DNA of 42,966 bases from Bacilli bacterium (GCA_017450325.1 JAFSVB010000076.1:1-42966); one strand, 5' to 3'. Shown: positions 4,801 to 22,593, counted from the first letter of the stretch. Notes: generated by a model not told the origin, from the sequence alone. Numbers and translations: made by a program.

Positions 4801-6440
4801 ACCTGCCCTTATGGGAAAGGGTCTCGTCTGCGGAGGCCTTCCGTTTCGCGCCCGTCTTCTACCAGATGCTCAAGCAGTGGAGGCCGGAGGAGAGCGAAGG
4901 CGTCTTCTTCTCCAACCTCGCCCGCATCGAACATCAACGTTGGATGAGGCGCCATATCGTCGATGGATGGATCCCCAAAGCGAAAAAGGACAAAGCGTCC
5001 CGTTACCATAACTGCATCGTTCCGATGGCGATGCTTAACCGTTATTCCATCTGCTACGACTTATTCAACGTATTTCTTGGAATATCTCTGCAAATCGGCC
5101 CTAAAAATATTAAAAAAGGTTTCGCAGGACAAGTGGATTCTCTTCGCATCGATTCGGTGAAGCGCCAGATGGAAAGCTATCTCGCCGCCCATTATCCTCG
5201 CGTCACGCACAATCATCGTTCTCTAGTTCGTGCCTACTCCTTTGGGTTCGACGAATTCGGCGAAGCCATGGCCGAATCGCTTTTTGTGCACTCCGCCGAT
5301 GCGCGCATTGAAAACGGAGAGTCCAATCACTTCCTCGACAACGTTTTCACGGAAGACGCTGCCCAGCGCGGTTCGATTTACCGCACTTGCCACCAGCAAG
5401 CCATTGTCCTCAGCGGGCTCTCCGCGACGGACATCGCCGCCACTTCCGAAGCGGTTCTTCAGGCGAGGGCGAAACTCGATGAGAGCATCATGAAGAAATC
5501 CTTCGTCGCTAGAGAGTCGCCGCATGCTTACCAAGCGGGCGTGTCCTACCCAGCCTACTCGTTCCACCCGTTCGCCCTCGATGAACGTTCCTCTGGCTCC
5601 CTCGGCTCCTTGTTCCCATCAAAGGAATATCTGCCGGACTATATCCTCTTGTCCTTGCCCGAAGACGCGATGGTGCCAAGCTACCTGCGCGCGATTGTCG
5701 CCAAGCTGCTGCGTCTAGCCGTGGACGAGCACCTGCCCGATAAGGAACATCGCGCTATCACGATCTTCGCCCGCGTCTTTGACGATGAGGCGCTCGCCAA
5801 CGCGAAGAAAGCCATCGCGAACGCACCCTCTTGGATTCGCGTATGCTTCATCCGCGATTTCCGCGATAAGAGCGATGATGAACCTAACCCTAAGGCCATC
5901 GATTACTTCCGCGTCAAAGAGTTGCTCCTTTCTTCCGCGGAGATCGAAGACCATATCGGCGATTACGAGGCAAACATCACCACCTATCTTCTCGAACCGA
6001 ACCCGTCGAGGATGGTGCCTGTTTTGCGTCAGTCCATCGAGACGCTCTTCCAAGACGTTCAGCGCTTCTTGGAAAAACCTGGTTCGTTCTCGTTGCCCTC
6101 TTCCCGCGCGAAGAAAAAATCATGGGAAAAGATCTTTGAAGCCGAACGCAGGACATACGAAGACGCTTGCGCTTTTGGGGAACAGCTTTCGCGCATCGCC
6201 AAAGACAACGCCAAAAGCAAAGAACCCGTCGACTGGGCGGAGCTATGCTGCCACCTCGCCCGCCTCGAGCATCAGCGCTATGTGCGTTCCCTCATCGCCG
6301 ATAGCTGGACGTTCCATGAAGGAGCCAAAGTTCCAAAGCGGCGCATCGCCTCGGACTTGCTTCCTTTGGCGTGTCTAAGCGGAGAAGCGCTTCACCAAAG
6401 CATCCTTTATGCGCTTCTTGCCTTGGCGCTATATCGATAA
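1854..6440 (+). CDS. Giant membrane protein: channel-like TM region, TrkA/RCK-like segments, two RyR domains
   Basis: A 1528-residue protein. Residues about 35-57, 72-99, 108-131 and 180-205 are strongly hydrophobic; between the last two lies a semi-polar segment (FYATLGGFSFEG, about 160-172) placed like a channel re-entrant loop, without the TVGYG potassium filter. Then come a Rossmann-like start (KKIYIFTALNEE, about 225), a charged coiled coil (about 360-550), a clear G-x-G-x-x-G nucleotide-binding turn (GFGATG, 599-604), further Rossmann-like strands (PDYIVIAAGDD near 810, PDYILLSLPED near 1262) and two RyR-type motifs: EHQRWMRRHIVDGW (His1027) and EHQRYVRSLIADSW (His1473). RyR domains are known from ryanodine receptors and from bacterial proteins fused to TrkA-N domains; ligands there are uncertain. 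The ATG at 1854 has AGGGG 5 nt upstream; a TTG at 1833 is the alternative. It heads the unit with the AAA-like and VirD4-like genes. Likely a ligand- or nucleotide-gated membrane sensor or effector (inference). Confidence 0.85.
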   Translation: MGERLGNSSAQTGAKHGRMHNVFRSLLRSLREVKINLIVAIATFIVIYLVLGIVSVSTDALRNAINALPVAFRYIFSILYALGFVAGGFALTMLVYLIIRRRQSNSKYLVEAVMVFFVFLVSWGFKIAVSVDVTRIAYEAEFATPYNPSMSDITSIILSSFYATLGGFSFEGLSYDLVGANIFYVAFYYGSSIVAGLVSISVIASKAAYEFYSRILLFFLKTTGKKIYIFTALNEETLNLANSLVEEDRNLDRHANLIIFSGSALEPFDRHDPNCVEVLSHGYIYWSVLARKKSEKRKSILRTIGLRPSRFGSNAWESVTVFAFDSDNDHIPNEEENMDYVLFDINNRIARMRALNQKRIASSEDYFQCLEELESLENERNDYESLANTSPKLVDQQRLGYLRDAIQERQSRIAFYRDKYQEILRNIEERRRNFIEKAVAVAKQKGENESDARFKADALFEEKMRQKNRLGHAHVAYYILTKRKIDYQAYQDKIERMQEEYSKLFMHVDDESVQTRAKAITLEIEINKEENLDKRKKLIREKEVIEKDQKKRWKAAMPFSVHVWNESDAIAREAQSFVLEGKDDRIVPRESQTWAWTIGFGATGQAISKAIYCFTSNVGRDGVASRYLCDVFDPDSAEKLINQVRLDMPLAVCLSSEVARESLYDVYASSCTTIYEKYFSNYQDANAGDILEELRGTPFVLRRHSGDPVIEGKMAYDPENIQTLMTALREELPLPCFVFHNYAAGADRMRSMFFDLGGRSARAQGDLPTEETHGQKTAQIFELTSEIMKEDAAPSTRPSPYIEFVDQKYPDYIVIAAGDDYENIRIANSFVRHFQHFATGHRITIFVNIWDDKNNNLLFGFNRQGDDPDKQKQIIDLGVVRLIIVGNNEDIYKCSAILEDKNAMNFNAVYAEVAKSLDPKENAKGAEENKDYNLKSHLYFKSKGVFSDVFVPTEAITIATAKANTWDALSYQEQKEAELNWRHLPLWERVSSAEAFRFAPVFYQMLKQWRPEESEGVFFSNLARIEHQRWMRRHIVDGWIPKAKKDKASRYHNCIVPMAMLNRYSICYDLFNVFLGISLQIGPKNIKKGFAGQVDSLRIDSVKRQMESYLAAHYPRVTHNHRSLVRAYSFGFDEFGEAMAESLFVHSADARIENGESNHFLDNVFTEDAAQRGSIYRTCHQQAIVLSGLSATDIAATSEAVLQARAKLDESIMKKSFVARESPHAYQAGVSYPAYSFHPFALDERSSGSLGSLFPSKEYLPDYILLSLPEDAMVPSYLRAIVAKLLRLAVDEHLPDKEHRAITIFARVFDDEALANAKKAIANAPSWIRVCFIRDFRDKSDDEPNPKAIDYFRVKELLLSSAEIEDHIGDYEANITTYLLEPNPSRMVPVLRQSIETLFQDVQRFLEKPGSFSLPSSRAKKKSWEKIFEAERRTYEDACAFGEQLSRIAKDNAKSKEPVDWAELCCHLARLEHQRYVRSLIADSWTFHEGAKVPKRRIASDLLPLACLSGEALHQSILYALLALALYR

Positions 6441-6512
6441 TTGTTTCCTCTATTTCCCAGCGAAAAGGATTGCTTAGGGAACTAGTATCGTAGGAAAATA
6501 ATTTAACTGAGT

Positions 6513-6531
6513 GCGCTTTTCAAGAAAGCGC
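6513..6531 (+). other. Hairpin just before the AAA-like gene RBS
   Basis: GCGCTTT (6513-6519) pairs perfectly with AAAGCGC (6525-6531) over a 5-nt loop, and the ribosome binding GGGGG begins two bases later. No T tract follows, so it is not a terminator. It may protect or process the mRNA or limit access to the ribosome binding site (inference). Confidence 0.45.
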
Positions 6532-6543
6532 TTGGGGGTACCA

Positions 6544-7401
6544 ATGAACTTAGAACAGATTATGGGACGCCCTGGATGCGAGGACATCGCCACGCTCGTG
6601 AAGGGCTGGCGCCGCGTTTCCCAGAGGCAAAAAGGCAGGGAGCTTAAGGTTCCTCTCCCGAATTATTATCTAAATGCCGATGAGGGCTTTGATTTTGATT
6701 CCCTCTTCCTCCTTCTTGGCGAGGAACTCGAGGACCTCGAGCTGATGGAATTCGATGGGCAGCGCAAAGTCTATTCCTTCTTCCTAAAATACTCGCCCGC
6801 GGAGCAGCCGGAGTTCAATTCTTTCCGCATGCTCTACGATGTGGTGGAGCACGAGCTTTCGAAGTTCGGTCATTCTTTCGGTGGCATCCTCGTCGTCGAT
6901 ATCACCGAATGGGTGGAACTCGGCCATACAAGCGACGCGAAGTTCGTCGACTTCCTCTCCTATATGGATACGATCGACGACCGGACGATGATCGTCTTCC
7001 TCGACCGCTCGGGCGGTGGCGTCCATAGCGACGATGCTTTCCGCAAGCTCGACGTCGGCATGCGCATCGAGCGCCTCTTCCTTTCTTATAAGGACGTCGA
7101 TGTGGCCATCGCTTATTTGAAGGAAGAGCTAGCCCGTTATGGCTTCTCTTTGGAAAAAGACTTCGATAAGAAAATCGTCGAGACGGTGGAAACCGTCCTA
7201 TCCACTCCAGGATCGGAAGGTGAGGAATCCATCCGCCAGATGGCGATGGACATGGCCTATTTAGCCTTGAAGAGCGAAGAAGATGTCGGCTTCGTCCTAA
7301 ACGAGAAGAATTCCGCCGCTTTCTTACCCGACGGCGATTGGACCAAGACCTTCCTGAACAAACCCAGAAAGAGACTCGGACTCGTAGGAGGGGATAAATA
7401 A
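6544..7401 (+). CDS. AAA-like protein lacking a Walker A motif
   Basis: A 285-residue soluble protein. The middle (about residues 110-160: GGILVVDITEW, then FVDFLSYMDTIDDRTMIVFL) reads like the Walker B to sensor 1 part of CbxX/SpoVK-type AAA proteins. The following MRIERLFLSYKDVDVAIAYL resembles the arginine-containing and lid region of that family. Where the P-loop should be, after a strand near residue 42, the sequence is NADEGFDFDSLF, with no GxxGK[ST]. The Walker B acid pair is also altered (D-I instead of D-E). It is therefore probably a catalytically dead AAA homologue, perhaps an adaptor or regulator of the VirD4-like ATPase encoded one base downstream. The start at 6544 follows GGGGG with normal spacing; the in-frame upstream TTG-type start at 6511 lies inside a hairpin. 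The family assignment rests on motif reading only. Confidence 0.7.
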   Translation: MNLEQIMGRPGCEDIATLVKGWRRVSQRQKGRELKVPLPNYYLNADEGFDFDSLFLLLGEELEDLELMEFDGQRKVYSFFLKYSPAEQPEFNSFRMLYDVVEHELSKFGHSFGGILVVDITEWVELGHTSDAKFVDFLSYMDTIDDRTMIVFLDRSGGGVHSDDAFRKLDVGMRIERLFLSYKDVDVAIAYLKEELARYGFSLEKDFDKKIVETVETVLSTPGSEGEESIRQMAMDMAYLALKSEEDVGFVLNEKNSAAFLPDGDWTKTFLNKPRKRLGLVGGDK

Positions 7402-7402
7402 C

Positions 7403-9142
7403 ATGAAACACAATTACCGTTACATGAATTACGTCGGCGATTCCCAGTTTGAGAACCGCTTTGCCACTCCCAACGAGATGAAGGCCGTCTTGACCCGCAT
7501 GGATATTTCGGATGCGGATGGCAAGGACATCCCGACCGGTGGTATGCCCTTTATTTCGGATACCAAAGTCGCTTATGGCGATACGCAGGACTACCATACG
7601 CTTGTCCTAGGCTCGACCGGCTCGATGAAAAGCCGCACCTTGATCCTGCCCACCATCTACACCCTTGCGTTAGCAGGGGAGAACATCGTCATCGCGGACC
7701 CTAAGGGCGAGCTTTACGATTTCACCTCGGGCTTCTTGAAGAAGAGAGGCTACATCATCAATGTCGTCAACCTTCGCGACATGAAGCATTCCGATTGCTG
7801 GAACCCCTTGGGCGAAGCATGGACGCTCTTCCATAACGGCGAGCAAGAAGCGGGGCTCAACCTCGCCTATGAGCTCGTTAATTCTTTGACCGACCGCGTC
7901 GCCGACTCCAAGTCCCCGAGCTGGGCTATCGCGGCGAAGCAATTGCTCAACGGTCTCGTCGAACTTATGATCCGCGGCGCGCAAAGCATCGAAGAATGCA
8001 ATGCCGGCTCCCTCTCAACCCTTCTTGACCGCGTCAAGATCGCGGACCAGGACCCTTCCTCCCGCTTCGATGACGATGGCCGTTCCTTCCTCGAATTCGT
8101 CAACTCCCTACCGGAAGGCTGCTCGCTGAAGAACAACCTTTTCTCTTCGGTGAATATGACGCGCACCGCAACCACGACGCTTGCGGGCGTCCTCGACGTC
8201 GCTTACGGAGCCGTCTCTGCTTTCACGACTTCCACGTCGTTGATGTCTTTGACTTCCCACAATACCTTCGATATTCACCATCTTGCCCACGAGGGCGAAA
8301 AGCATGCGATCTTCTTGATCGTTCCGGATGAGGATACCACCTATCACTTCATCGCGACGAGTTTCATCAAGCAGCTCTATAACTGCATGATTAAGGAGTC
8401 TTTCAAGCTGAGTACCGGCCAACTCCCGGTCCGTTTGAATTTCATCCTCGATGAATTCGCGAACCTGCCGAAGATACCCGACATGCCTTCAATGATTACC
8501 GCCGCGAGAAGCCGCAACATGAGGTTCTTCCTCGTCGTGCAAAGCAACAACCAGCTTCACGCGACCTATAAAGACGATGCGGAGACCATCAAGACAAACT
8601 GCCTTAACTGGGTCTACCTCTCCACGAAGGAAGACCAGCTGATTCAACAGATTCAGCGCATGGTCGGCAACCGCTCTGGCAATTCCAACGAGCCGCTTAT
8701 CACCTATCAGGAACTCTCTTCCCTGCGCAAAGTCGTCGGACCTAAAGGTGGCGCGGACGCGCTTATCCTTATGCATCGTTCCCGCCCCTTCGTTTCCTTC
8801 ATGCCCGACGTCTCCCGTTATGAACAGTTCCGGCGCTACCCATCCATCCCCATCCGCGACGCCGATGGAAAGTTCGTGTTCTTCGATCTCAACAAGCGCG
8901 CCCTTTTCCTCGAAGAAGAGGAAGCTCTTGAAATCTATACTGGCGCAGGCAAGCTTGCCACGGACGAGGAACCTGAAGAAAAGCCTAATCCGGAGTCCAA
9001 GACCTCTTCAAAGAAAGACTTAGGCGGCTGGGGCGATTGGGATGAAGAGGAAGAAACCCAGGAACCCGCCAAGAAGCCAAGCAGCTCGACTCTTGACGAA
9101 TTGCTCAAGAAGTTAAAAGAAGGCGACGGCGAGGACGAATAA
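7403..9142 (+). CDS. Soluble VirD4/TraG-like ATPase with altered Walker A
   Basis: A 579-residue protein. The order of motifs is that of VirD4/TraG coupling ATPases: VLGSTGSMKSRTLILP (P-loop region), VIADPKGELYDFT, then CWNPL, and later the Walker B segment FILDEFANLPKIPDM (Asp350, Glu351) with AARSRNMRFFLVVQSNNQL. Coupling proteins pump substrates into type IV secretion channels. Two things differ: no N-terminal membrane segments, so the protein is cytosolic, and Met75 replaces the invariant Gly of GxxxxGK[ST] (Lys76 and Ser77 are kept). Residues about 515-579 form an acidic, lysine-rich tail containing GGWGDW (Trp543, Trp546), the same motif that ends three vWA proteins of this locus. RBS GGAGGGG lies well placed upstream. 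No relaxase or secretion-channel gene is nearby, so a role in remodelling or loading within the signalling system is more likely than conjugation (inference). Confidence 0.85.
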   Translation: MKHNYRYMNYVGDSQFENRFATPNEMKAVLTRMDISDADGKDIPTGGMPFISDTKVAYGDTQDYHTLVLGSTGSMKSRTLILPTIYTLALAGENIVIADPKGELYDFTSGFLKKRGYIINVVNLRDMKHSDCWNPLGEAWTLFHNGEQEAGLNLAYELVNSLTDRVADSKSPSWAIAAKQLLNGLVELMIRGAQSIEECNAGSLSTLLDRVKIADQDPSSRFDDDGRSFLEFVNSLPEGCSLKNNLFSSVNMTRTATTTLAGVLDVAYGAVSAFTTSTSLMSLTSHNTFDIHHLAHEGEKHAIFLIVPDEDTTYHFIATSFIKQLYNCMIKESFKLSTGQLPVRLNFILDEFANLPKIPDMPSMITAARSRNMRFFLVVQSNNQLHATYKDDAETIKTNCLNWVYLSTKEDQLIQQIQRMVGNRSGNSNEPLITYQELSSLRKVVGPKGGADALILMHRSRPFVSFMPDVSRYEQFRRYPSIPIRDADGKFVFFDLNKRALFLEEEEALEIYTGAGKLATDEEPEEKPNPESKTSSKKDLGGWGDWDEEEETQEPAKKPSSSTLDELLKKLKEGDGEDE

Positions 9143-9150
9143 AAAAGAAA

Positions 9151-9193
9151 AAAAGAGGCATTTTGCGGAGATTCTTCGCGAAAAGCCTCTTTT
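9151..9193. terminator. Bidirectional terminator between VirD4-like and TerB-like genes
   Basis: AAAAGAGGC (9151-9159) pairs with GCCTCTTTT (9185-9193), flanked by A and T runs on both sides, between two convergent genes. The loop contains CGGAGATT, which also occurs in the loop of the terminator at 21483-21520. Confidence 0.85.
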
Positions 9194-9200
9194 GTTTTCC

Positions 9201-9764
9201 TTAAATGCGACGGAAGGATTCGAGGAAGATGTCGTTGATTTTCATATTGATGAGGTCTTGCTCGTTCTCACCAAGTTCGCCATCGACCGCGGCGATGTTC
9301 TCGGCGATGCGCGTCGTCAAATCAAGGAGGGTGTCGATATAGGCTTTGCCGTCCGTTCTGCCTGCGGAGATGACGATGAGCTGCGAGAAGTTATCGATGA
9401 TGTCTTCGAGCTGGTCCTCGAGTTTCATCTGGAACTTGGCAACGAGGTATGGGCTCGCTTCGCCATGTTCGTCCCAGGTCCACTGGACTCGATCGTTGGA
9501 AATCATCTTCATGAGGTCGCCGTTTTGGGCGATTTCCTTAATGGCCTGTAGCTCCTCGGGGTGGGCGACGCCATCGCCTAAGACGACCGCGAACAGCATG
9601 CACTGCAAGGCGTAGTCGTACTGGCGGAGGAAGACATCGCGCTTAAAGTCGGTATCACCTGTATCTTCTAAATAGGCATCGACGGTTCCGTTGAGGAATA
9701 ATTGGACGTTCTCATACGCTTTCTTCGCTTTTTCAAAAGCGGCGGGATTGGTATATTCAGCCAT
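9201..9764 (-). CDS. TerB-like protein
   Basis: A 187-residue, mostly helical, acidic, soluble protein. Two segments have the TerB-type pattern of a helix ending in D-G-x and a glutamate a few residues later: VVLGDGVAHPEE (Asp64, Glu70) and AAVDGELGENEQ (Asp161, Glu168). TerB-like domains occur in tellurite-resistance/stress (Ter) gene clusters and are proposed to bind metal through such acidic residues. AGGAG lies 7 nt before the ATG and a promoter is visible at 9790-9819. It is the only leftward gene within the accessory locus. Its presence next to vWA, PP2C and kinase genes fits the known co-occurrence of TerB and TerY-P modules. Assignment is by motif, not by alignment. Confidence 0.7.
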   Translation of the reverse strand: MAEYTNPAAFEKAKKAYENVQLFLNGTVDAYLEDTGDTDFKRDVFLRQYDYALQCMLFAVVLGDGVAHPEELQAIKEIAQNGDLMKMISNDRVQWTWDEHGEASPYLVAKFQMKLEDQLEDIIDNFSQLIVISAGRTDGKAYIDTLLDLTTRIAENIAAVDGELGENEQDLINMKINDIFLESFRRI

Positions 9765-9789
9765 GTTTTTTCTCCTGTAGAGTGCTTTT

Positions 9790-9819
9790 ATTTTATGCTA
9801 GGTATTCCCGCATTGTCAT
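9790..9819 (-). promoter_or_regulatory. Promoter of the TerB-like gene
   Basis: Read leftward: ATGACA (9819-9814, five of six to TTGACA), 18-bp spacer, TAAAAT (9795-9790, five of six). It lies 26 nt before the start codon. Confidence 0.55.
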
Positions 9820-9854
9820 CCTTTTCCTAGCGAAGAGACTTTTGGAGTTAGGGT

Positions 9855-9883
9855 TTGTGTCCCTTTGTTGCGCGCGCTATAAT
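9855..9883 (+). promoter_or_regulatory. Promoter of the LRR-vWA-PP2C-kinase operon
   Basis: Perfect TATAAT at 9878-9883, with TTGTGT at 9855-9860 and a 17-bp spacer. The spacer ends in CGCGCGC immediately before the -10. The start codon of the LRR gene is 26 nt downstream. Confidence 0.65.
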
Positions 9884-9908
9884 TTTTTAAGTTAATGGGG
9901 GTAAATAG

Positions 9909-12900
9909 GTGGATAAGATTCTCGACAAGATTTTTCGAGAGATCGGCCGTCTTCCAACCGACGGAACTTTCGGCAGGAAAGTCGTCCGTGCGGCAAAGGA
10001 TAAGTTCCAGAAACAGGAATTTGCCGATGACGCTTTTTTGCACTCTCTGAATTTCGTTTGCCATCGTTACGGCAAAGCCCTAGACACGATTGTCACAGCC
10101 GCTCTTAAGTATGACGAAAAGGGCACCGAGGATGCGCTCATGGCCATGCTTGACGCGGCGAATGCCGATGGCGTTCCCGTGGAAGTCTATGGCGTTTTCC
10201 TCAACCGTCTTTTGGCTTATTGCGGCATCCACGTAGATCCAACGAAGTACCAAAGCCTCGCCGATTTTGACCCGAAAAGCCGCAGGGTTTCCGAGACGAT
10301 GGGCAGCTATGCCCCAAATCCCGCCGATTTCGTCATCGACTCTTCCAAGGGTTGCCTTTCGCGTTATCTTGGGAAGGCGAAAGCCGTCCTCGTTCCTACG
10401 GGTATTCGCGCGATTGCCGATGGTGCTTTCGCCAAGTCTTCCGCTCAGTTCGTCTGCTTGCCGAACTCGGTGCAGATCATCGGAAAAGGTGCCTTCGAGG
10501 GTTGCACGGAATTAATCGACCTGCGCTTGCCTGCGGGACTTACGGAGATTCCAGAAAGCTTATTCAAAGGGGATAAGTCCTATTCTCTTTTCTGCTCCCC
10601 CGGAATCAAAAAGATCGGCAAAGGGGCCTTCGCGGGCACTTCCGTTCCCTTCGGTCCTTTCTTTGCCGAGGTCGAAGAAATCGGAGAATACGCATTTGCC
10701 GGCGATCCCAATATAGGGAACCTGCGCTTAGGACCAGACGTGAAGAAAGTTGGCGCATACGCATTTGCCGAATGCGCGAATCTCTCCGCTTTGCTTGTGG
10801 AGGGAAGCCCGGAAATAGAGGATTATGCCTTTTCGAAGACACCGAAGCTTTCCAGCGTTGACTTTCATGGTCCAAACACCCGACTCGCGGCAAATGTCTT
10901 TGCGGAGAGCCGCATCGTCTCATTGGCGTTCCATGGTGGCGTCATCGGGCAATTTGCGTTCCTAGGATGCGGCGGCCTTGCCAAAGTCCACATCGAAGGC
11001 GACACGATTGTCGGAAGCAGTGCCTTTGCGGGCCTTCCTAGCCTAGCCAATCTTTCTTTCGGCGATGGCAAGATTCGCATCGAAGCGAAGGCTTTCGAAG
11101 GATGTGGAGCGACTTCGCTCTCCTTCAAAAACGTTGCAATCGGCAATTCCGCTTTTGCGGGATGCAAGAAACTCTCCGGCATTCGTTTTGAGGGAAATGC
11201 GATGATTGGCCAACACGCCTTTGAAGGCGATTCCAACCTTAAATCTTTGCAATTCTCCGGCGAAATCGTAATTGAACGCAACGGATTCGCCAACTGCGGA
11301 TTCACGTCGATCTCGCTCGGAAAAGGAAAATACGGCGAAGCTTCCTTTGGTTCGAATGCCGCGCTTCGCGATGTTATCGTTTCCTCGGATGAGGCCATAT
11401 TCTCCCCGGGCGTATTCTCGGGTTGCGGCGCAGTCCAATCCTTGACTGTGCCTTCACTAAATGCGAAAAGCGGCCATCCTTTCCTTGCTCTTTTCGGCAG
11501 ACAGCCATACGAGAACGCCGCCACTCTCGAGTTGCAAAAAGGGCAGTTCTATCTGCATCCGCTAGACCGATTGACCATCGGCTTAATCAATCAAGGCGAT
11601 GTCCTCCCCAAAGGGCTTGCCGTCGGTGAAGTCCGCGTGGAAAACGCGGAAACTCTCCCCGCGAATTTCCTCGAGCATGTGAGTGGGCTGAAGCGCTTCG
11701 TCATCGGCGCTGGCGTCAAGACGATCGAAAGCGGCTTCTGCCATGACGGCTTCGAGTTCGTCGTCGATCCAAAGAACCCATACTTCGCCCAAGAGGATGG
11801 ACTGCTTCTAACCAAAGATAAGAAAGTTGTTTTAGCCGTCCTGGATCCTTCCAAGCTGAGCCCGAACATCTTAAAGAAATACGAACGCATCGGCGCAACC
11901 ATCTTCAAAGGACAATCCTTCCCCAAGTTCCTCTTCGGGGAGAATTCGCCTGTTTTTGGGACTGCCGTCTTCGAGGAATGCTCCTTCGATACTATTGTGA
12001 TCGGCGATTGGTCCAAACTTTCCAAAGATACTTTCTTACGTTGCACGGTGAAGAACATCGAGCTCAAGGACGCGAAAGGAAATCCATGCTTCCTTGACTT
12101 CCCGTATCCGATCGAGACTTTGACGACCTCTCGCGTGGACCGCGGCTATCTCTCGATGGCTTTCTTCGACAAAGTCCCTGCGAAGAAGGTTATCGTCGCG
12201 GACGCCAACGTGACGGGCGAATGCGATATAGCCGGCGAAGAAGTCGAGATGCTTCGCTGCAATTTGACCGATGCCGACCTCCGTTCCATCAGAGTCAAAT
12301 CCCTGGCCTGCCGCGAATGTCGCTTGAATAATGCTCTCCTAAAGAATGTCGTCCTTTCCTCCCTCGCCATTGAGAATTGCGAAGGAAACGGGTTGGATTG
12401 TAGTGATGCAAAAATCGAGAATATCAGCCTTATCTCTGCAAAACCCGTGTCTTTTGCCTACCTTCATAACGGGGAGAGCCCGCTCCACGTCAAAGCCCTT
12501 CGCGTCGAGGCGCCGAAGCTTTTGGCCAAAGATAGAGAAAGCATCGAGGCCGGGACGATCGAAGTGGAGGTTCCCGCCCTTGAAGACGATGCCTTCCATG
12601 GCGTTGCCGGCCAAACACTTTCGTTCCTCGTCCCCGTCAAAGAAGTGGGCGAATACGCTTTTGCCTTCTCTTCCTTCGACACGATGAACATCCCCGAAGG
12701 ATCCTGCTTTTCCAGCAAGGGCAAAGAGCGGTTCCTCGTCAATGCGGAAGGTATCGCTTTCCATGTCGTCGATGCGGATGTCCATCGCATGGCGTTCAAT
12801 GACGAAATCAGAGGGTACACGCCCTCGCTATTCGCGGCGCTTCGCGATAGTGTCGTGGCAGTTCTTCTAGCTACGGACGTCGATGTATCCTCATTGGATT

Positions 12901-15122
12901 TCCAAGGATTCAGCAATCTGACTCGTGTCTCGATCGGTGCTGCTCAAAAATCACTCAACCTGCTCTTCCCGAACTCCCCCATCGAAGAGGTCCTCTATGA
13001 GGATGAAGACGTCCCCGATAATTTCTTCGAAGATCTGCAGGGCCTAAAGCGTGTTGGGACGAAGAAAGCCCTGCGCCATCTCGGCTTCCGCGCCTTCGCT
13101 GGTTGCTCTCGCCTTCAATCGATTGAGAATCTTGAGTCCGTGGAGGAAGTAGGGGACTGGTGCTTCGCGGGAGATGTGAGCTTGCAAGAGATTCGCTTGC
13201 CTCATGTTAAGAAACTTGGCCTACAACCATTCTATGGCTGTTCGGGCTTAACAGATTTAAGCCTTCGCGAGGAAGCGTTCCATGGAAAGCCGCTCGCCGC
13301 GGTTTTCGCGAACATGCCTTACCCAGGCGGCGAAAAAGTCAGCGTGAACAACATCGAGTATTTCATTCCCAAGAACGTAGCCAACATCACGCTTGGTGGC
13401 GTGGGCTTCTGCGATGGCTTCCTAACCGGATTCTCTTCCGCGGACGTCACCTTAACGGACCCCATCGTGAAAGTAGGGGCGGAGGCTTTTGCCCATTGTG
13501 GAGGCCTTCATGCGGACCTCTCACGTTTAGAGGAAGTCGCGGAGCGCGGATTCTATGGCTGTTGGCTCGATGAAAAGCTCGTCTTACCGAGCATTCGCGT
13601 TATAAAGAAAGAGGCCTTCGCGGAATGTGCATCCTTGAAATCCGTGCAAATCGGCCCTCATTTGACGGAAATGGCTCTCGATGCTTTCTGTGGGTTCGAG
13701 TTCCATTCCATCCAGGACTTCGTTTTCGAAGAAGGCGCTTACCGCATCCAGGATTGCTGTTTGTGCCATCATGACGAATTGCTCCGCGCCTTCAATGTCG
13801 TCGAGTTCCCGAAGAACCTGGTCCTTGACCGAGGCGTTAAACGTCTCTGCGCCGGCGCCATCCAGGGCATTGATGCATTGGAAAGCCTTGAGCTCACCGA
13901 CGTAGAAGTCATGGAAAGCGGTGCGGTCGCGAATAACGCGAACCTCGTTTCCATCGCGTTTGGACCAAATATCCGTCAATACGACAAAATCCTCGGTAGC
14001 CCAAATGTCGAAAAGGTCGTTTTAGAAGGCACGCCTGCCTTAGAGGGCGTGCGCAAGCTCTCCGACCTCATGGAATTCGTTGGCCATGTCGCCTCGTTCA
14101 CCGGAAAGCTCGCTTCCATCCCCGAGGGATTCCTCGCGGAAGCGCCTTTAGTGGATGTCGCCTTAACCCTGACGGATGCGACGGAACTGCCCACCGACGC
14201 ATTCGCCACGCCCTCGCTTCGGAATGTTTCCGTCTCTGCGCCGTTATTAGCCAACCTGCCTAAGGGCCTTTTTGACCGTTGCGCGTATCTAGAAGGGTTG
14301 GATCTTCTTGGCTGCCCGCGCCTACAAGTGAGCGCGGAAGACCTCGCGAATCTAGCGGGGCTCACCACCATAAAACTCAGTCTCTTAGAAGAGCCGATTA
14401 AGAAAATCCTTGCAAAACGCTGCTTATCTTATCTGAAAAACATTGTTATCGGGGATTGCCCGGAACTCAAGAAAGAGATGTTCACCGGCCTGACTTCCAT
14501 CGAAACGATCGAAATCAAGAAGCACGGCAGCCTCATCCACCAGGCCTGTTTTGAAAACCTACCTGTGAAAACAATCGCTTTCGGCAGCGCGATCATCGGC
14601 GTGGAATCGCAGGCGTTCCGCGATTGCCATTCCTTGACGTTTAACCCTGCCTTCTTCCAAACGATCATCGCCATTGGGGAAGAAGCCTTCGCGGGCGTCT
14701 CCAACCTCGGGAGGTCGCTATCCTTCCGCGTGCTTGGCGACGTGAAACGCCGCGCCTTTGCCGATACGAATCTCGATAGCCTCGAAATCACGGAGGATAC
14801 CGCGGTCACCTTCTCCGAGGACGCTTTTGCTGGAACGAAACTACGCGAAGTCTCTGTTGCCGGCGACCTCACGCTTGGCGACCGGTGCTTCGCGAATAGT
14901 TTCGTCGGCGTCTCCTACCTGCGTCTACGCGGCCACTTGAGGTCCGTGGGCGAACGCGTCTTCCAAGGCTGTGCCGGTTTGACGCTGGAATATACCTACA
15001 AAGGGGATATCGACGCGCTTCGCGGCGACGATTCGTGGAAACAATTCCGTGACTTTGGCTCCAAGCCTGGCTTCTTCGGAAAGATTTTCCATTCGCCATA
15101 CATCAAAGTAAAAAGGATTTAG
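9909..15122 (+). CDS. Giant BspA-type leucine-rich repeat protein, apparently cytosolic
   Basis: A 1737-residue protein. After a helical N-terminal domain (about residues 1-130) nearly the whole chain is made of BspA-type leucine-rich repeats (LRR_5 family) of about 22-24 residues, with the recurring pattern I-G-x-x-A-F-x-G-C-x-x-L; clear copies are IGKGAFEGCTEL and VGAYAFAECANL. Such solenoids normally bind proteins. Most BspA-type proteins are secreted or cell-wall bound, but here there is no signal peptide, no LPXTG motif and no membrane segment. The first codon is GTG, preceded by GGGGGT at suitable spacing; the next Met is about 80 residues in. It heads an operon of four vWA genes, PP2C and kinase, whose first RBS overlaps its stop codon. 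A scaffold or recognition subunit for the vWA/kinase machinery is the likely role (inference). Confidence 0.9.
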   Translation: MDKILDKIFREIGRLPTDGTFGRKVVRAAKDKFQKQEFADDAFLHSLNFVCHRYGKALDTIVTAALKYDEKGTEDALMAMLDAANADGVPVEVYGVFLNRLLAYCGIHVDPTKYQSLADFDPKSRRVSETMGSYAPNPADFVIDSSKGCLSRYLGKAKAVLVPTGIRAIADGAFAKSSAQFVCLPNSVQIIGKGAFEGCTELIDLRLPAGLTEIPESLFKGDKSYSLFCSPGIKKIGKGAFAGTSVPFGPFFAEVEEIGEYAFAGDPNIGNLRLGPDVKKVGAYAFAECANLSALLVEGSPEIEDYAFSKTPKLSSVDFHGPNTRLAANVFAESRIVSLAFHGGVIGQFAFLGCGGLAKVHIEGDTIVGSSAFAGLPSLANLSFGDGKIRIEAKAFEGCGATSLSFKNVAIGNSAFAGCKKLSGIRFEGNAMIGQHAFEGDSNLKSLQFSGEIVIERNGFANCGFTSISLGKGKYGEASFGSNAALRDVIVSSDEAIFSPGVFSGCGAVQSLTVPSLNAKSGHPFLALFGRQPYENAATLELQKGQFYLHPLDRLTIGLINQGDVLPKGLAVGEVRVENAETLPANFLEHVSGLKRFVIGAGVKTIESGFCHDGFEFVVDPKNPYFAQEDGLLLTKDKKVVLAVLDPSKLSPNILKKYERIGATIFKGQSFPKFLFGENSPVFGTAVFEECSFDTIVIGDWSKLSKDTFLRCTVKNIELKDAKGNPCFLDFPYPIETLTTSRVDRGYLSMAFFDKVPAKKVIVADANVTGECDIAGEEVEMLRCNLTDADLRSIRVKSLACRECRLNNALLKNVVLSSLAIENCEGNGLDCSDAKIENISLISAKPVSFAYLHNGESPLHVKALRVEAPKLLAKDRESIEAGTIEVEVPALEDDAFHGVAGQTLSFLVPVKEVGEYAFAFSSFDTMNIPEGSCFSSKGKERFLVNAEGIAFHVVDADVHRMAFNDEIRGYTPSLFAALRDSVVAVLLATDVDVSSLDFQGFSNLTRVSIGAAQKSLNLLFPNSPIEEVLYEDEDVPDNFFEDLQGLKRVGTKKALRHLGFRAFAGCSRLQSIENLESVEEVGDWCFAGDVSLQEIRLPHVKKLGLQPFYGCSGLTDLSLREEAFHGKPLAAVFANMPYPGGEKVSVNNIEYFIPKNVANITLGGVGFCDGFLTGFSSADVTLTDPIVKVGAEAFAHCGGLHADLSRLEEVAERGFYGCWLDEKLVLPSIRVIKKEAFAECASLKSVQIGPHLTEMALDAFCGFEFHSIQDFVFEEGAYRIQDCCLCHHDELLRAFNVVEFPKNLVLDRGVKRLCAGAIQGIDALESLELTDVEVMESGAVANNANLVSIAFGPNIRQYDKILGSPNVEKVVLEGTPALEGVRKLSDLMEFVGHVASFTGKLASIPEGFLAEAPLVDVALTLTDATELPTDAFATPSLRNVSVSAPLLANLPKGLFDRCAYLEGLDLLGCPRLQVSAEDLANLAGLTTIKLSLLEEPIKKILAKRCLSYLKNIVIGDCPELKKEMFTGLTSIETIEIKKHGSLIHQACFENLPVKTIAFGSAIIGVESQAFRDCHSLTFNPAFFQTIIAIGEEAFAGVSNLGRSLSFRVLGDVKRRAFADTNLDSLEITEDTAVTFSEDAFAGTKLREVSVAGDLTLGDRCFANSFVGVSYLRLRGHLRSVGERVFQGCAGLTLEYTYKGDIDALRGDDSWKQFRDFGSKPGFFGKIFHSPYIKVKRI

Positions 15123-15132
15123 GAGGTAACCC

Positions 15133-15879
15133 ATGCCTAATTACATGACCGATGAGGATTTGCTCATCAACCCTTCACCCCGTATCCCCCTGTGCGTCTG
15201 CATCGACGTCTCGCGTTCCATGACTCATAAGGATGGCGACGACGTGAACCGCTTCGACGAACTTAAGGCCGGCCTTGCGGACTTGATCAACATCATTCGC
15301 GACGACGCCATGATGTCTTCTTCTTTGGAGATCGCGGTCGTCGCCTTCAACGATGAAGCCGCGGTCCTCCATCCTTTCTCTAGCGCCGAGAACCTCGATG
15401 TCAATAGCCTTAAGCCATCTTTGTCCGGTAACTCCGACCTCGGCGCGGGCGTCTTGCGGAGCCTGGAACTCTGCGATGAGCGAAAGCAGGCCTACCGCGA
15501 ACATGCGATTGACTACTACCAGCCCTGGCTCGTCATCATGACCGACGGCAAGCCCTCGGGCTCCGCTCCCGATTGGAAAGAGCGCATCAAGAAGGCCCAA
15601 CAAGAGACGCGAACGCGCGAAGAAAACAACAAACTCACCACCATCTGCGTGCTCTGCGGTGGCGATAAGGACATCGGCTCCGTGGAGGAGGCAAAGGACC
15701 AAGTCGCGGTCGAAACATTGCGGAAATTCACCGCAAATCCCGTTCAAAATTTCTCTGGAGCCGGATATAAGGGCCTCTTCCGCTGGCTCGGACGTTCGAT
15801 GTCGAATTCGATGTCTGGCGTCCGTCCCGACTTCAGCACCATCTTATCCAACGAAGACGATTGGGTTACCGATTGGTAA
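15133..15879 (+). CDS. vWA domain protein 1 (TerY-like)
   Basis: A 248-residue cytosolic protein that is essentially a single von Willebrand A domain, as in TerY. The metal-ion-dependent adhesion site is visible as D25-V-S27-R-S29, and the later MTDGKP supplies the distal Asp. The segment that usually gives the MIDAS Thr reads GNSDLGAG, with Ser in place of Thr. The N-terminus (NYMTDEDLL, then NPSPRIPLC) is nearly the same as in vWA 2 and related to vWA 3 and 4, so the four genes are tandem paralogues. The C-terminus ends DWVTDW, a variant of the W-G-x-W tail seen in the others. AGGAGG overlaps the stop codon of the LRR gene, showing co-translation. Probably a metal-dependent protein-binding adaptor (family knowledge). 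Confidence 0.9.
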   Translation: MPNYMTDEDLLINPSPRIPLCVCIDVSRSMTHKDGDDVNRFDELKAGLADLINIIRDDAMMSSSLEIAVVAFNDEAAVLHPFSSAENLDVNSLKPSLSGNSDLGAGVLRSLELCDERKQAYREHAIDYYQPWLVIMTDGKPSGSAPDWKERIKKAQQETRTREENNKLTTICVLCGGDKDIGSVEEAKDQVAVETLRKFTANPVQNFSGAGYKGLFRWLGRSMSNSMSGVRPDFSTILSNEDDWVTDW

Positions 15880-15897
15880 CGCGAGAAAGGAGTGACA

Positions 15898-16662
15898 ATG
15901 TGCCCCAATTACATGACGGATGAAGACTTGCTCACCAATCCTTCCGCTCGCATCCCCGTTTGTCTATGCATCGACACTTCCGGGTCCATGCTCGCTTGCG
16001 AAGGCGGCGAGGACACGGGCGAGACGATCGTCCGCGATGGCGTGACCTATCGCGTCGTGACGGGCGATGCCGTGGCGGTGCTCGACCACGTCAACAACGG
16101 CCTCAAGGAAATGGTGCGTTCTTTGCAGGGCAATGACCAAACCCGCAATTCCGTGGACCTCTCCATCATCCTATTCGATGACACGTCTCGCGTTTACCTG
16201 CCCTTCACCACCATCTCAAGCCTTGAGGATATCCCGCAGATTCCCTACGAAGAAGTCCACGACATGACCATCATGTCGCAAGGCCTTCGCCTCGCCTTGG
16301 ATACCATCCTGGCCCGCAAAAGATCCTATAAAGAGAACCGCGTGGACTATTACCAGCCCCAAATCGTCCTCTTCACCGATGGTGAGACCAATGTCGACGA
16401 TCCCATCGCGCCGCTTCAAAATGAAATCAGGGGCCTCTGTGCGAACCGCAAGCTGACGTTCATCCCCATCAACATCGAGACGATGACGGACGAAGCCCGC
16501 GAATTCCTAAAAGGATTCGGCGGAAAGCCACCCGTCTATGCCAAGGACATCGTCGGCTTCTTCGAGTGGTATTCCAAATCGCTTGTCAGCATCTCGAGTT
16601 CCAAGCCTGGCGAGTCCGTCCCCGTCGACGTCGACGGCATCGACTCGTGGGGCGATTGGTAA
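15898..16662 (+). CDS. vWA domain protein 2 (TerY-like)
   Basis: A 254-residue vWA protein. MIDAS: D26-T-S28-G-S30, then a Thr in DMTIMSQG and a distal Asp in LFTDGET. It has an insertion of about 25 residues after the MIDAS strand (acidic, then DGVTYRVV) that its paralogues lack, which may alter binding specificity. The protein ends DSWGDW. The start at 15898 is chosen over the in-frame GTG at 15892 because AAAGGAG (15885-15891) abuts the GTG but sits 6 nt before the ATG, and because the paralogue starts at the same place. Member of the operon from 9909 to 21480. Confidence 0.9.
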   Translation: MCPNYMTDEDLLTNPSARIPVCLCIDTSGSMLACEGGEDTGETIVRDGVTYRVVTGDAVAVLDHVNNGLKEMVRSLQGNDQTRNSVDLSIILFDDTSRVYLPFTTISSLEDIPQIPYEEVHDMTIMSQGLRLALDTILARKRSYKENRVDYYQPQIVLFTDGETNVDDPIAPLQNEIRGLCANRKLTFIPINIETMTDEAREFLKGFGGKPPVYAKDIVGFFEWYSKSLVSISSSKPGESVPVDVDGIDSWGDW

Positions 16663-16729
16663 ACGAAGGAACCATCGCGATTACGCGAAAAATAGATGAC
16701 AATCTCAACCGTGAAAGGAGCAAATACAC

Positions 16730-17458
16730 ATGGCTGAAAATGACTATCTTGGCATGGATGATCTTCAAATCAACCCTGCCGCCCGCATCCCTCTATGCTT
16801 CTGCGCTGACATCTCCGGCTCCATGGCTCGTGAAAACGCCGAAGGAAAGAAGCCCATCGAGGAACTCAACACCTTCCTCAACGAAATGATGTCCTACATC
16901 CGCGACGAAGCGAACCTCGCCGAATCGGTCGAAGTGGCGATCGTCACCTTCCAAAGCTCGGTCGATGTCGTCCGCGACTTCGCCCTTTGCAAAGCGGAGG
17001 ACGGTTTGGTCGAGCTGACCGCTTCTGGCGGCACGGCCCTCGCCCATGGTGTCGATAAGGCAGTCGAGATTCTCGAAGCCCGCAAACAGATGTACAAAGA
17101 CCAAGCGGTCGATTATTATCAACCGATTCTCGTCCTCATCACCGACGGCAAGCCGGGCGACTTAGAGGATTTACCCGCGGTCGAGGCGAAGACGTGCCAG
17201 CTTTCCAACGAGAACAAGCTCTCCCTCTTCCCGGTCGTCATCGGAGCCGATGGCGACGAAGCAAAGTGGCGCTCCATCATGGATTGCCTCAAGGGTTTGT
17301 CCCCCAACCACGCCCCCTTGCATCTTAAGGGGCTTCAGTTCCAAGGTCTTCTGCAGTTCCTTGGCAAATCCATCGAGCGCTTGCACGAATCCAACCCCGG
17401 CCAGCAAGAAGAAAAGACCACCGGCGAAGAAGTCGGCGGCGGCTGGGGCGAATGGTAA
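16730..17458 (+). CDS. vWA domain protein 3 (TerY-like)
   Basis: A 242-residue vWA protein with a complete MIDAS: D27-I-S29-G-S31, Thr in SGGTALAHG and Asp in LITDGKPG. The N-terminus (DYLGMDDLQINPAARIP) pairs it with vWA 4 rather than 1 or 2. It ends GGGWGEW. AAAGGAG precedes the ATG with normal spacing. The 67-nt gap upstream is the longest between the vWA genes and holds nothing I recognise. TerY-type vWA proteins are known partners of PP2C phosphatases and kinases and may be their substrates. Confidence 0.9.
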   Translation: MAENDYLGMDDLQINPAARIPLCFCADISGSMARENAEGKKPIEELNTFLNEMMSYIRDEANLAESVEVAIVTFQSSVDVVRDFALCKAEDGLVELTASGGTALAHGVDKAVEILEARKQMYKDQAVDYYQPILVLITDGKPGDLEDLPAVEAKTCQLSNENKLSLFPVVIGADGDEAKWRSIMDCLKGLSPNHAPLHLKGLQFQGLLQFLGKSIERLHESNPGQQEEKTTGEEVGGGWGEW

Positions 17459-17485
17459 TCCCATATATTTTAAGGAGTAATAAAT

Positions 17486-18169
17486 ATGAGCAATTTCGAC
17501 TACCTCGGTGCTGATGACATCGAATTGAAGACAAATCCTTCCGCCCGCATCGCCGTCGCGCTTTGCGTCGACACCTCCGGTTCTATGTGCGGCCTCATCG
17601 ACATCGTGAACCAGGGCGTCGCCGAGCTGTTCGACGCGCTGAAAAACGAAGCGTCGACCGCGAACTCTGTCGAGCTCTGCATTGTTGAATTCAATAGCAG
17701 CGCCAAACTCGTTCGCGATTTCGCCCTCATCGACGGCCCCGCACCTCATCTTGGCCCCGCCACGGGCGGCACCAACCTCGGCGAAGGCATCAATATGGCC
17801 CTCGACCTGCTCGATGAGCGCAAGAAGAAATACCAGCAGAACCGCGTCGATTACTATCAGCCGCATTTGGTCGTCTTCTCCGATGGCGAGCCGAACTATC
17901 CTTACGAAACCGCTCGCGATCGCGTCAAAGACCTCACGGCGAAAAGGAAGCTCACCTTCCTTCCGATCATCCTCGGTGAGGCCGGTTCCGCCGCCGAAGA
18001 AGCCGCGGGCGTCCTACGCGAATTCAGCAATAACGCCCCTATTCGCGCAAAGGATATCGTCAAGTTCTTCCAGTGGTATTCCAAGTCTCTTTCCAGCATC
18101 TCCTCGTCTCAGCCTGGTGAAAAAGTCCCCATGGATAAAGAAGGCATCGGCGGCTGGGGTGAATGGTAA
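17486..18169 (+). CDS. vWA domain protein 4 (TerY-like)
   Basis: A 227-residue vWA protein, the shortest of the four. MIDAS is complete: D29-T-S31-G-S33, Thr in TGGTNLGEG and Asp in VFSDGEP. The last residues are GGWGEW. Between the vWA core and the tail, residues about 195-215 (FFQWYSKSLSSISSSQPG) closely match the same position of vWA 2 (FFEWYSKSL), so that part is conserved independently of the N-terminal pairings. AAGGAG lies upstream of the ATG. The next gene (PP2C) starts 12 nt after the stop, with its RBS overlapping the end of this gene. Confidence 0.9.
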   Translation: MSNFDYLGADDIELKTNPSARIAVALCVDTSGSMCGLIDIVNQGVAELFDALKNEASTANSVELCIVEFNSSAKLVRDFALIDGPAPHLGPATGGTNLGEGINMALDLLDERKKKYQQNRVDYYQPHLVVFSDGEPNYPYETARDRVKDLTAKRKLTFLPIILGEAGSAAEEAAGVLREFSNNAPIRAKDIVKFFQWYSKSLSSISSSQPGEKVPMDKEGIGGWGEW

Positions 18170-18181
18170 AAGGAGCCCCTT

Positions 18182-19570
18182 ATGACCGATTCCCAACAGG
18201 AAAACCAAGAACAGGTGGCGGAAGCCGTTGAGAACGAAAAGCCCCTCGTTCCGCCGCTAGCGCAAGGCAGCGATGCCCAAAACGCCCACTTCCGTTTTAA
18301 CATGGCCCGCAGCGAGGGCTTGCGCCACATCAAGGAAAACATCCCGTGCCAAGATGCCGTCGCGGCGCTTGTCAAAGCGAAAAACGGCGCGCTTACCCAC
18401 GCGATTGCCTTAAGTGATGGCTGCTCGAGCTCTTCGCTCTCCCATTATGGTTCGCAAATCACCGTCAACACGGTCGTCACGTTGCTCTGCGAGCAGTTTG
18501 ACCGCTTGAAGATGATGCCCGACCGCGGCCTCATCCCCTATGTCGTCGACTCCATCATCCGCGCCCAGAAGCAATTCATCGCGGAGCACCGCGACCTCTT
18601 TGAGGCTGAGAAGGAAAAAGAGGGCAAATACGAGGCATTCGTAGAGCGTTATGGTTCCCGCCTTCCCAAAGAATCGCCCGACGATATCGAAACGCTTTAC
18701 TTCCTCCGCATGATGAATGCGACCTGCCTCTTCGTCGCGGAACGCCTTGGTCAGACGATCTATGGCCATCTTGGCGACGGCTATATCATGCGCCTCACCG
18801 CCGAGAATAAGATGACCATCGCCTCGATGGAGGACAAGACCGAAGAGCATAACGTCACCGTCTATCCTCAAAGCGTGCATTTCCGTTATTGCATGACGGG
18901 GAACACCATGGCCTATCGCCAGATGAAGATCGGGCGCACAAAGGAGCCTTCCTATGCCTGGATCCTTATTTCCGACGGCCCCGAGAATACCCTCATCGAG
19001 AAGAAGGGTCCCGAACTGAAAGTCCGTCCCTATGTCTTCAACCTCATGGTTCGTTGCACGATGCTCGAGGAGAACTACGAAGCGTCCCACAAGGTGCTGC
19101 AGGAGTTCTTCGATGGCAAGTTGCGCGACTCCACGGCCATCCATGGCGGCGATGATATCTCGACCGCGATCATGGTCCACGAAGACTGCATGGACACTTG
19201 CCGCGATCCCGCCGCCCACCCCGTGGACTATGTGACTACGGTGCTCGAGACCCCTGTGGAGGAGCCTTCTCCAGTCCCCGTGGCCCCAAAGGTGCGGGAA
19301 CACCATAGCAAAGAAGAGCTCGAGGCCGCGAAAGGCCAGATCCTCGCCTTGTTCCGCGATGAGGAGCGCCTCACGCCCTCCGATATCATGGAAGTGCTCG
19401 AGGACCGCGAGAACCCCTTCAATCCTCTGGAAATCGACAACATTCTCTCGTCCCTCATCGCCGAGGGGCTCATCCGCCGCCTCGAGATGGCGGTCGATGA
19501 ATCCAGCGGCACCCATAGCTACGAATACATCGGTCCGAACGAGCCTGAAGAAGACTCGGAAGACGAATAA
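18182..19570 (+). CDS. PP2C-family protein phosphatase with C-terminal winged helix
   Basis: A 462-residue protein. Residues about 35-335 are a PP2C (PPM) metal-dependent Ser/Thr phosphatase: Asp79 in ALSDGCSSSS, Asp199 in HLGDGYI, Asp265 in ISDGPEN and Asp324/325 in GGDDISTAIMV are the metal-binding acids in the usual order. Residues about 385-450 look like a winged-helix domain (helices EELEAAKGQILALF and LTPSDIMEVL, recognition helix EIDNILSSLIAEGLI, then a wing). The end is acidic (EPEEDSEDE), like the end of the VirD4-like ATPase. The N-terminal CQD and SDG positions match phosphatases of TerY-P triads. It should reverse phosphorylation by the downstream kinase-like protein. AAAGGAG lies 6 nt before the ATG. 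The winged helix could mediate protein contacts or DNA binding; I cannot tell which. Confidence 0.88.
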   Translation: MTDSQQENQEQVAEAVENEKPLVPPLAQGSDAQNAHFRFNMARSEGLRHIKENIPCQDAVAALVKAKNGALTHAIALSDGCSSSSLSHYGSQITVNTVVTLLCEQFDRLKMMPDRGLIPYVVDSIIRAQKQFIAEHRDLFEAEKEKEGKYEAFVERYGSRLPKESPDDIETLYFLRMMNATCLFVAERLGQTIYGHLGDGYIMRLTAENKMTIASMEDKTEEHNVTVYPQSVHFRYCMTGNTMAYRQMKIGRTKEPSYAWILISDGPENTLIEKKGPELKVRPYVFNLMVRCTMLEENYEASHKVLQEFFDGKLRDSTAIHGGDDISTAIMVHEDCMDTCRDPAAHPVDYVTTVLETPVEEPSPVPVAPKVREHHSKEELEAAKGQILALFRDEERLTPSDIMEVLEDRENPFNPLEIDNILSSLIAEGLIRRLEMAVDESSGTHSYEYIGPNEPEEDSEDE

Positions 19571-19581
19571 CCGCATCTTTA

Positions 19582-19607
19582 CCCCAGGGCCGAGCCTGGC
19601 CCTGGGG
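19582..19607 (+). other. Strong GC hairpin between PP2C and kinase genes
   Basis: CCCCAGGGCC (19582-19591) pairs perfectly with GGCCCTGGGG (19598-19607) over a 6-nt loop. No T tract follows, so it is not a standard terminator. It sits 11 nt after the PP2C stop and 25 nt before the kinase start. A processing or stability site, or an attenuator of kinase expression, is plausible. Confidence 0.6.
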
Positions 19608-19632
19608 ATCCATATCCCTGCTAGGAGGTCCC

Positions 19633-21480: not shown

Positions 21481-21482
21481 AC

Positions 21483-21520
21483 AAAAAGAGGCGGGGTTTA
21501 CGGAGATTTCGCCTCTTTTT
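21483..21520 (+). terminator. Terminator of the LRR-vWA-kinase operon
   Basis: AAAAAGAGGCG (21483-21493) pairs with CGCCTCTTTTT (21510-21520), followed by more T. The arms and the loop segment CGGAGATT resemble the terminator at 9151-9193. Confidence 0.9.
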
Positions 21521-21567
21521 TGTATGATTTTTCTTTTTACGTGAGCACAAAAGCGCGAAAGTGGTGT

Positions 21568-22110
21568 ATGCTCTTGCACATGCCGTACACGTGCATCTTC
21601 TTCAAAAACCTCGCCGAGACCACCGTATCCCCCTTGCCGTTTGTCTTCTCGGCCATCGGCACCATCGTGCTGTTTATTTTGGTGCGCCTCGCTATGTACC
21701 TTTATCGCTATGGCGACCGCAACCTCCTGATTTTTGCCCGCCGCATCGCCGACCTCGATGCCTGCATGCTGCGGCTAGACCTCGTCATCGAGAACCTCGA
21801 GCGCGGGGAGAAGCAACTGAGCAACCTCCGCATCGTCTCCTACCAAGGACATGCCAGCGAGACGCTCGCCGAGCTGAAAGTCGCCCCCATCCAGCGCCAA
21901 GGCAGTTCTGCGTTCATTCAAAAAGACGGAAGCGGTTATAGCCTCCATGCTGCAAACGGCACGAAAAACGAAGCGGTGGTGGAGTTCGTCTTAACCGCCC
22001 CCTGCAAGCAAGCCTACCTCGTCGCGGAGAACCAAAAGGGCAAGACCGTGAAAGCCTATCTCAATCTATCCACCTCGGAGACGCAGATGCTTTCCTTCCG
22101 CAAAGCTTAA
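21568..22110 (+). CDS. Single-pass membrane protein of unknown function
   Basis: A 180-residue protein with one strong membrane segment at about residues 22-50 (PFVFSAIGTIVLFILVRLAM), followed by a charged helix (RRIADLDACMLRLDLVIENL) and a C-terminal beta-rich part. The C-terminal domain is probably cytoplasmic because the segment is followed by Arg residues (positive-inside rule). I do not recognise the family. The start is uncertain: the frame is open back to 21520, inside the preceding terminator; ATG 21568 (weak AAAGTGG upstream) and ATG 21580 are candidates, and no strong RBS is visible. It is followed after two bases by the candidate HEPN gene, so the two are probably co-translated. 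Position and orientation suggest it belongs to the accessory locus. Confidence 0.6.
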   Translation: MLLHMPYTCIFFKNLAETTVSPLPFVFSAIGTIVLFILVRLAMYLYRYGDRNLLIFARRIADLDACMLRLDLVIENLERGEKQLSNLRIVSYQGHASETLAELKVAPIQRQGSSAFIQKDGSGYSLHAANGTKNEAVVEFVLTAPCKQAYLVAENQKGKTVKAYLNLSTSETQMLSFRKA

Positions 22111-22112
22111 GC

Positions 22113-22544: not shown

Positions 22545-22593
22545 GGCCCTCCATTACCAATTAGGAACCTTTTTCGACAAGATAGGAAAGATT

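Follow-up and report, generated by a model that had tools for sequence, protein, structure and literature searches.

Four neighbouring vWA proteins and a VirD4-like ATPase, encoded on a contig of a Bacilli bacterium (GCA_017450325.1, JAFSVB010000076.1; the 42,966 nucleotides analysed are referred to as the window), carry closely similar tryptophan-containing tails, which raises the question of what such a tail does and which protein reads it. An earlier note on this DNA proposed a common docking site, sorting signal or modification site, read by a component such as the kinase, the PP2C phosphatase or the LRR protein. The motifs that it described are exact in translation, with vWA2, vWA3 and vWA4 ending in SWGDW, GWGEW and GWGEW, vWA1 ending in DWVTDW, and the ATPase having GGWGDW at residues 541–546. 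All four vWA proteins match Pfam VWA/VWA_2 and are adjoined by PP2C and Ser/Thr kinase genes, an arrangement that is repeated in homologous loci.

Table 1. Positions of the tails and their host genes in the window, with the sites at which ClpP, AAA-like and VirD4-like genes occur together.
Feature	Position	Strand	Basis or remark
ClpP-like protein, part of resident module	984–1769	minus	
RyR-domain protein, part of resident module	1833–6440		
Resident AAA-like and VirD4-like module	6511–9142	+	Present without cassette (L153)
GGWGDW in acidic tail of VirD4-like ATPase, residues 541–546	9023–9040	+	CDS 7403–9142; lineage-specific, absent in orthologues
Triad cassette (TerB-like, LRR, four vWA, PP2C, kinase)	9143–21632	.	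Absent from otherwise collinear L153 of sister genome G675
Four YegL/TerY-like vWA proteins	15133–18169	+	Pfam VWA/VWA_2; homologues by profile
vWA1 tail DWVTDW	15859–15876	+	CDS 15133–15879; translation
vWA2 tail SWGDW	16645–16659	+	CDS 15892–16662; translation
vWA3 tail GWGEW	17441–17455	+	CDS 16730–17458; translation, AF2 model with weakly ordered tail
vWA4 tail GWGEW	18152–18166	+	CDS 17486–18169; translation, AF2 model
PP2C phosphatase, triad member, candidate reader	18182–19570	+	Pfam PP2C_2, E 3e-19
Ser/Thr kinase-like protein, triad member, candidate reader	19633–21480	+	Pfam Pkinase, E 4e-11
ClpP/AAA-like/VirD4-like sites	window 984–9142; L153 1879–8219; L155 8481–15098; L156 4320–10937; L120 13115–16237		

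Scanning of the organism's own genome (2,382,051 bases in 232 contigs, 95.8% complete) with the pattern TGGGGNGANTGG gave 11 matches, and only in vWA2, vWA3 and vWA4 is the pattern both in frame and C-terminal in a real gene. The other in-frame matches fall within the ATPase, a surface-type protein (L003; HEWGDW) and open reading frames that are short or look spurious. In 20,000 composition-preserving shuffles, WG[DE]W appeared by chance 51 times in any non-vWA protein of the locus and ten times in the ATPase's final 79 residues.

Alignment identifies the C-terminal tryptophan tail as a signature of the vWA family found in YegL/TerY-like kinase–vWA–PP2C triads. A profile built from the four window vWAs and six relatives led to 69 loci in the genome collection, and whole genomes supplied further loci. 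Among 49 aligned vWA homologues from many phyla, 46 end in W-x-[EDT]-[LIWMYF] with zero to three residues before the stop, which shows the tail to be conserved in other genomes. The tryptophan is conserved in at least 90% of these sequences, on a par with the MIDAS residues (D29, S31 and S33 of the DxSxS motif are invariant in alignment A2); the third position of the motif is E (n = 36), D (n = 5) or T (n = 5), and the final position holds L or I more often than W. WG[DE]W is one case of this wider consensus, which in full is S-x-S-x-P-G-E-x-V-x-L-D-x-x-G-I-x-G-W-[GA]-E-[LI]-COOH, with a conserved Ser-rich stretch (Ser-x-Ser-x-Pro-Gly) immediately preceding the tail. When vWA representatives are taken below 70% identity, 44 of 58 have the tail.

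Variants of the tail include GWAEL in Arthrobacter and Nocardioides, GWGEL in Lachnospiraceae and Thermoguttaceae, GWGTL in Campylobacter-assigned and Chromatiaceae-assigned bins, GWAEI in Spirochaetaceae, DDWAEI in Borkfalkia and SWGELD in a Saccharibacteria-assigned bin (organisms are named as in the records, and several of these records are metagenome bins). Records of the plasmid collection extend the set to Cyanobacteria, Deinococcus, Cupriavidus, Pseudomonas, Sinorhizobium and E. coli; viral contigs yielded no vWA relative, and phage records just three. In L025, a homologue of vWA1 ends in VDWTDW, and a strongly diverged protein (7511–8203) that scores poorly as a vWA keeps EWGEW. A limited literature search, which left out most subscription papers, did not turn up the terminal motif.

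As members of one family, the four window vWAs have inherited their tails, which are therefore not independent and are counted once. Chance similarity can be ruled out for the vWA tails, since their conservation spans phyla; it could still account for the ATPase copy alone, given a short motif with a single internal copy in one ATPase, and as an explanation of the whole pattern it is very unlikely. A degron was set aside, the tail being kept across paralogues and phyla. The W-x-G motif of type VII secretion was likewise set aside, as its position differs from that of the vWA tail.

The tryptophan is not universal, since a large group of vWAs has another, acidic–aromatic end (DDFFKFMEE). Most of the loci L054–L079 belong to this clostridial group, in which DDFFKFMEE-type tails replace the tryptophan tail, and several of the kinases beside these vWAs have basic, KKKRFGLF-type ends. 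The acidic–aromatic vWA tail and the basic kinase tail possibly represent a second class of tail pair.

Profile matches and gene content place the vWAs, PP2C and kinase of the window in YegL-type, TerY-like triads. Profile A2, which was built without YegL, finds E. coli YegL at 208 bits; this protein, encoded in 5,364 of 5,426 complete E. coli genomes, ends in PKGWTSV, with the tail tryptophan fourth from the end. The E. coli trio YegL–PphC–YegI (vWA, PP2C and membrane Ser/Thr kinase) is the same as that of the window, whereas the yegL locus has one vWA rather than four, is without LRR or TerB-like protein, and gives a tail that ends TSV where vWA3 and vWA4 end GEW. Within a limited literature search, no role for the YegL tail was found to be published. 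Phosphorylation by YegI and dephosphorylation by PphC, which acts on YegI, are known from the literature (PMC13232886), and conditions promoting expression of yegI–pphC have not been defined (PMC13232886).

TerY-P triads, in which vWA, PP2C and kinase are encoded together (Anantharaman 2012, as given in PMC11090510), share this gene set with the window. The vWAs that are more TerY-like (L080) end in LPPPPPEINVVL-type sequence, unlike the window tails, and the PADLOC TerY model matches only vWA3, weakly (E 9e-4), with no match to the other three. No zinc ribbon or paired CxxC was seen by eye at the C terminus of the window kinase, in which Pfam gives the kinase domain only. Because the zinc ribbon was not seen and the TerY models match weakly, membership of TerY-P in the strict sense may or may not hold. 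Type III-A CoCoNuTs have duplicated vWAs beside ATPases (PMC11090510); the scan of window proteins recognised no CoCoNuT genes.

The ATPase contains T4SS-DNA_transf and TraG-D_C domains and scores 251.9 bits against the CD1115-family (cutoff 250). No mating-pair formation or relaxase genes were found among the window proteins scanned, and the neighbouring genes encode ClpP, RyR-domain and AAA-like proteins. Orthologues whose acidic tail is similar lack WGDW at 78% identity (G675, locus L153) and at 68% identity (G536, also listed as G677, locus L119), as do more distant orthologues in G676, G193, G135, G052 and G072. Membership of the ATPase copy in a conserved system is therefore not supported. 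The earlier note had held that absence of the motif from homologous tails in other species would refute it, and in this respect the two protein families part: the vWA homologues keep the motif, and the ATPase orthologues do not have it. The tail of the G675 ATPase has an aromatic-x-x-hydrophobic sequence, PFDKI, close to the corresponding point, but it is too short to use.

Locus L153 of G675 is collinear with window positions 1006–8898 and 21632–29864, and the TerB–LRR–vWA–PP2C–kinase stretch is absent from it. Because it is missing from this collinear sister locus, the stretch behaves as a cassette (the site is empty in L153, but G675 is only 61% complete and the cassette could lie elsewhere in its genome). 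Because L153 keeps the ClpP, RyR-domain, AAA-like and VirD4-like genes without the cassette, the ATPase is assigned to a separate resident module comprising these genes. VirD4-like modules in L155, L120 and L163 also have vWA, kinase or PP2C genes nearby, which makes a functional link between this module and the triad plausible.

The GGWGDW sequence of the ATPase is lineage-specific and may be either a recent docking site or a product of chance. The ATPase could be a genuine client, having gained the tag so as to join the triad beside it; in favour are the rarity of the motif in shuffled ATPase tails, its agreement with the W-ending flavour (WGDW) of the local vWAs and the three other loci just named. 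This is doubtful, however, as the copy is internal rather than C-terminal and orthologues are without it, even in G677, which carries the same vWA cassette.

Unrelated neighbours with the same end provide a second line of evidence. Immediately upstream of the kinase gene, four loci encode a protein with a weak HTH match and a tryptophan-containing end, namely KGWESID (L026), KGWETIE (L038), KGWDCIES (L037) and NGWEEL (L052); the L037 protein was placed in the family by phmmer and the other three by a weak HTH match. Two homologues, in L049 and L138, are without the tryptophan. The HTH proteins resemble the neighbouring kinases in part, one such kinase being annotated as a PIN-domain protein (L131), and the putative PIN assignment of the HTH proteins is our own reading. 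A further search for homologues gave few matches, including one in L163 that ends in VDWKEV beside a VirD4-like gene, with no vWA recognised near it. Positions 3114–17749 of L163 bring together a VirD4-like ATPase, PIN, the HTH-type VDWKEV protein, a sigma-70 factor, a kinase-STAND/TPR protein and PP2C.

In L085, a Sel1-repeat protein (Pfam) ends in DDYSKKVLAQIDDWNDL following a long acidic repeat, and the adjoining vWA ends in DDYANKLLSQIDDWDDL, so that the flavours of the two tails agree (DDWNDL in the Sel1 protein, DDWDDL in the vWA). Several near-identical EQEYED repeats lie ahead of DDWNDL in the Sel1 protein (8991–9950). A relaxed regular expression matched 8 of 1,083 non-vWA open reading frames, among them three of the HTH proteins and the Sel1 protein, with KGWDCIES of L037 falling just outside the expression. 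In the five co-operonic proteins that end in the tag, an acidic linker often precedes it. The idea of a shared docking site, as first proposed, gains from the tag on four HTH proteins and one Sel1 protein, whose independent recurrence supports it more than the ATPase copy does, and loses that copy as a member of a conserved system.

We consider the W-x-[ED]-[hydrophobic] end to be a docking peptide within the triad, of which some other proteins of the locus took a copy as a recruitment tag, a reading to which we assign a probability of roughly 0.55. The sequences show the conservation of the tail, its terminal position, its retention in minimal triads, its recurrence on unrelated neighbours and its absence from ATPase orthologues. 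The tail would dock the vWA subunit to a triad partner or to itself, the kinase and PP2C would set the docking state, with the Ser-x-Ser-x-Pro-Gly stretch as a possible phosphorylation site, and the HTH proteins, the Sel1 protein and perhaps the VirD4-like ATPase would have copied the tag and thereby joined the triad. We infer that the tail binds, that its reader is a member of the triad and, by preference, that the vWA domain fills this role.

The choice of reader is narrowed by minimal kinase–vWA–PP2C loci that keep the tail, which include E. coli yegL–pphC–yegI as well as actinobacterial and Lachnospiraceae loci. Triads without LRR, AAA-like or VirD4 proteins still have the tail, so any reader should be found within the triad itself: vWA, kinase or PP2C. 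The LRR protein suggested earlier, and likewise the AAA-like protein, are unlikely to be general readers, both being missing from these minimal triads. The adjacency of a VirD4-like gene to the triad would suit a tail that acts in sorting or secretion, with the VirD4-like coupling protein as its reader, but the tail is also kept where the locus showed no VirD4, as at E. coli yegL, and the ATPase bears the motif itself; we set this reading aside as extremely unlikely.

The AF2 single-chain model of vWA4 has a mean pLDDT of 91.5 and a fairly well-ordered tail, with values of 83 for residues 211–220 and 76 for residues 221–227, and places a strand at residues 225–226 in the tail. In the model of vWA3, which has a longer linker, pLDDT falls to 57 for residues 231–240 and 63 for residues 241–242, and a bridge is again placed, with low confidence, at the residue before the last. 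These models hint at a site for the tail on the vWA itself, and on their weak single-chain evidence we favour the vWA domain as the reader, which would take the tail as a latch in cis and clients in trans.

A tail that served only to complete the vWA fold would show the same order in the vWA4 model, and its copies elsewhere would then be a coincidence. Conservation reaches upstream to PGExVxLD, as expected of a structural extension, and packing of the tail on its own domain alone would likewise be conserved. A cis latch of this kind is nevertheless unlikely, as five unrelated co-operonic proteins share the tag, often behind acidic linkers, and as vWA3 still keeps the terminal motif behind a long, weakly ordered linker. 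The kinase or PP2C is a possible reader: docking of the tail to either enzyme would recruit substrates or the phosphatase in the manner of eukaryotic kinase docking motifs. Both enzymes accompany tail-bearing vWAs in minimal loci, conserved Ser is abundant just before the tail, and the action of PphC on YegI fits such an arrangement; AF2, however, places the tail in order within the vWA model itself, and we rate docking to these enzymes as rather improbable.

Parts of the proposed mechanism have precedents, both of them analogies, in Ku80 and ArnB. The fold matches of the vWA4 model are general vWA domains, among them ArnB (PDB entry 8s05; Z 17.6, r.m.s.d. 3.1, 176 residues aligned), and sequence matches in the PDB comprise only PTMP1 and ArnB, with no solved structure of a homologue that has the tail. 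In the archaeal ArnA–ArnB system, with kinase ArnC and phosphatase PP2A, the C-terminal part of ArnB is a phosphorylation-controlled contact region (PMC12852372, PMC6509490); this contact involves a helical bundle and FHA recognition, whereas the window vWAs have a terminal tryptophan motif. In Ku80, a hydrophobic pocket of the vWA domain reads a short tryptophan-containing peptide common to unrelated proteins, and mutation of the tryptophan greatly reduces or abolishes binding (PMC4831024). Ku80 and the Ku-binding motifs belong to eukaryotic DNA repair, and the core of the motif starts R-x-x-P, so that the likeness is one of mechanism, not of family.

More tentatively, the tryptophan peptide could be an interchangeable docking tag throughout such triads, including that of E. 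coli yegL, read by vWA domains and copied by HTH, Sel1 and VirD4-like clients. If vWA domains do read the tag, this would be a prokaryotic parallel to the recognition of short Ku-binding motifs by Ku80. On the vWA subunit, such a terminal tag offers a one-residue handle, the tail tryptophan, and a route to clients by sequence.

Beside the AAA-like and VirD4-like genes of the resident module, a ClpP-family gene recurs at several sites (Table 1), mostly together with a gene for a large protein, either of the RyR-domain kind or of unknown type. The ClpP assignment was made by Pfam in the window, L153 and L120 and by look in L155 and L156. In this setting, the VirD4-like ATPase might feed the ClpP-like protease.
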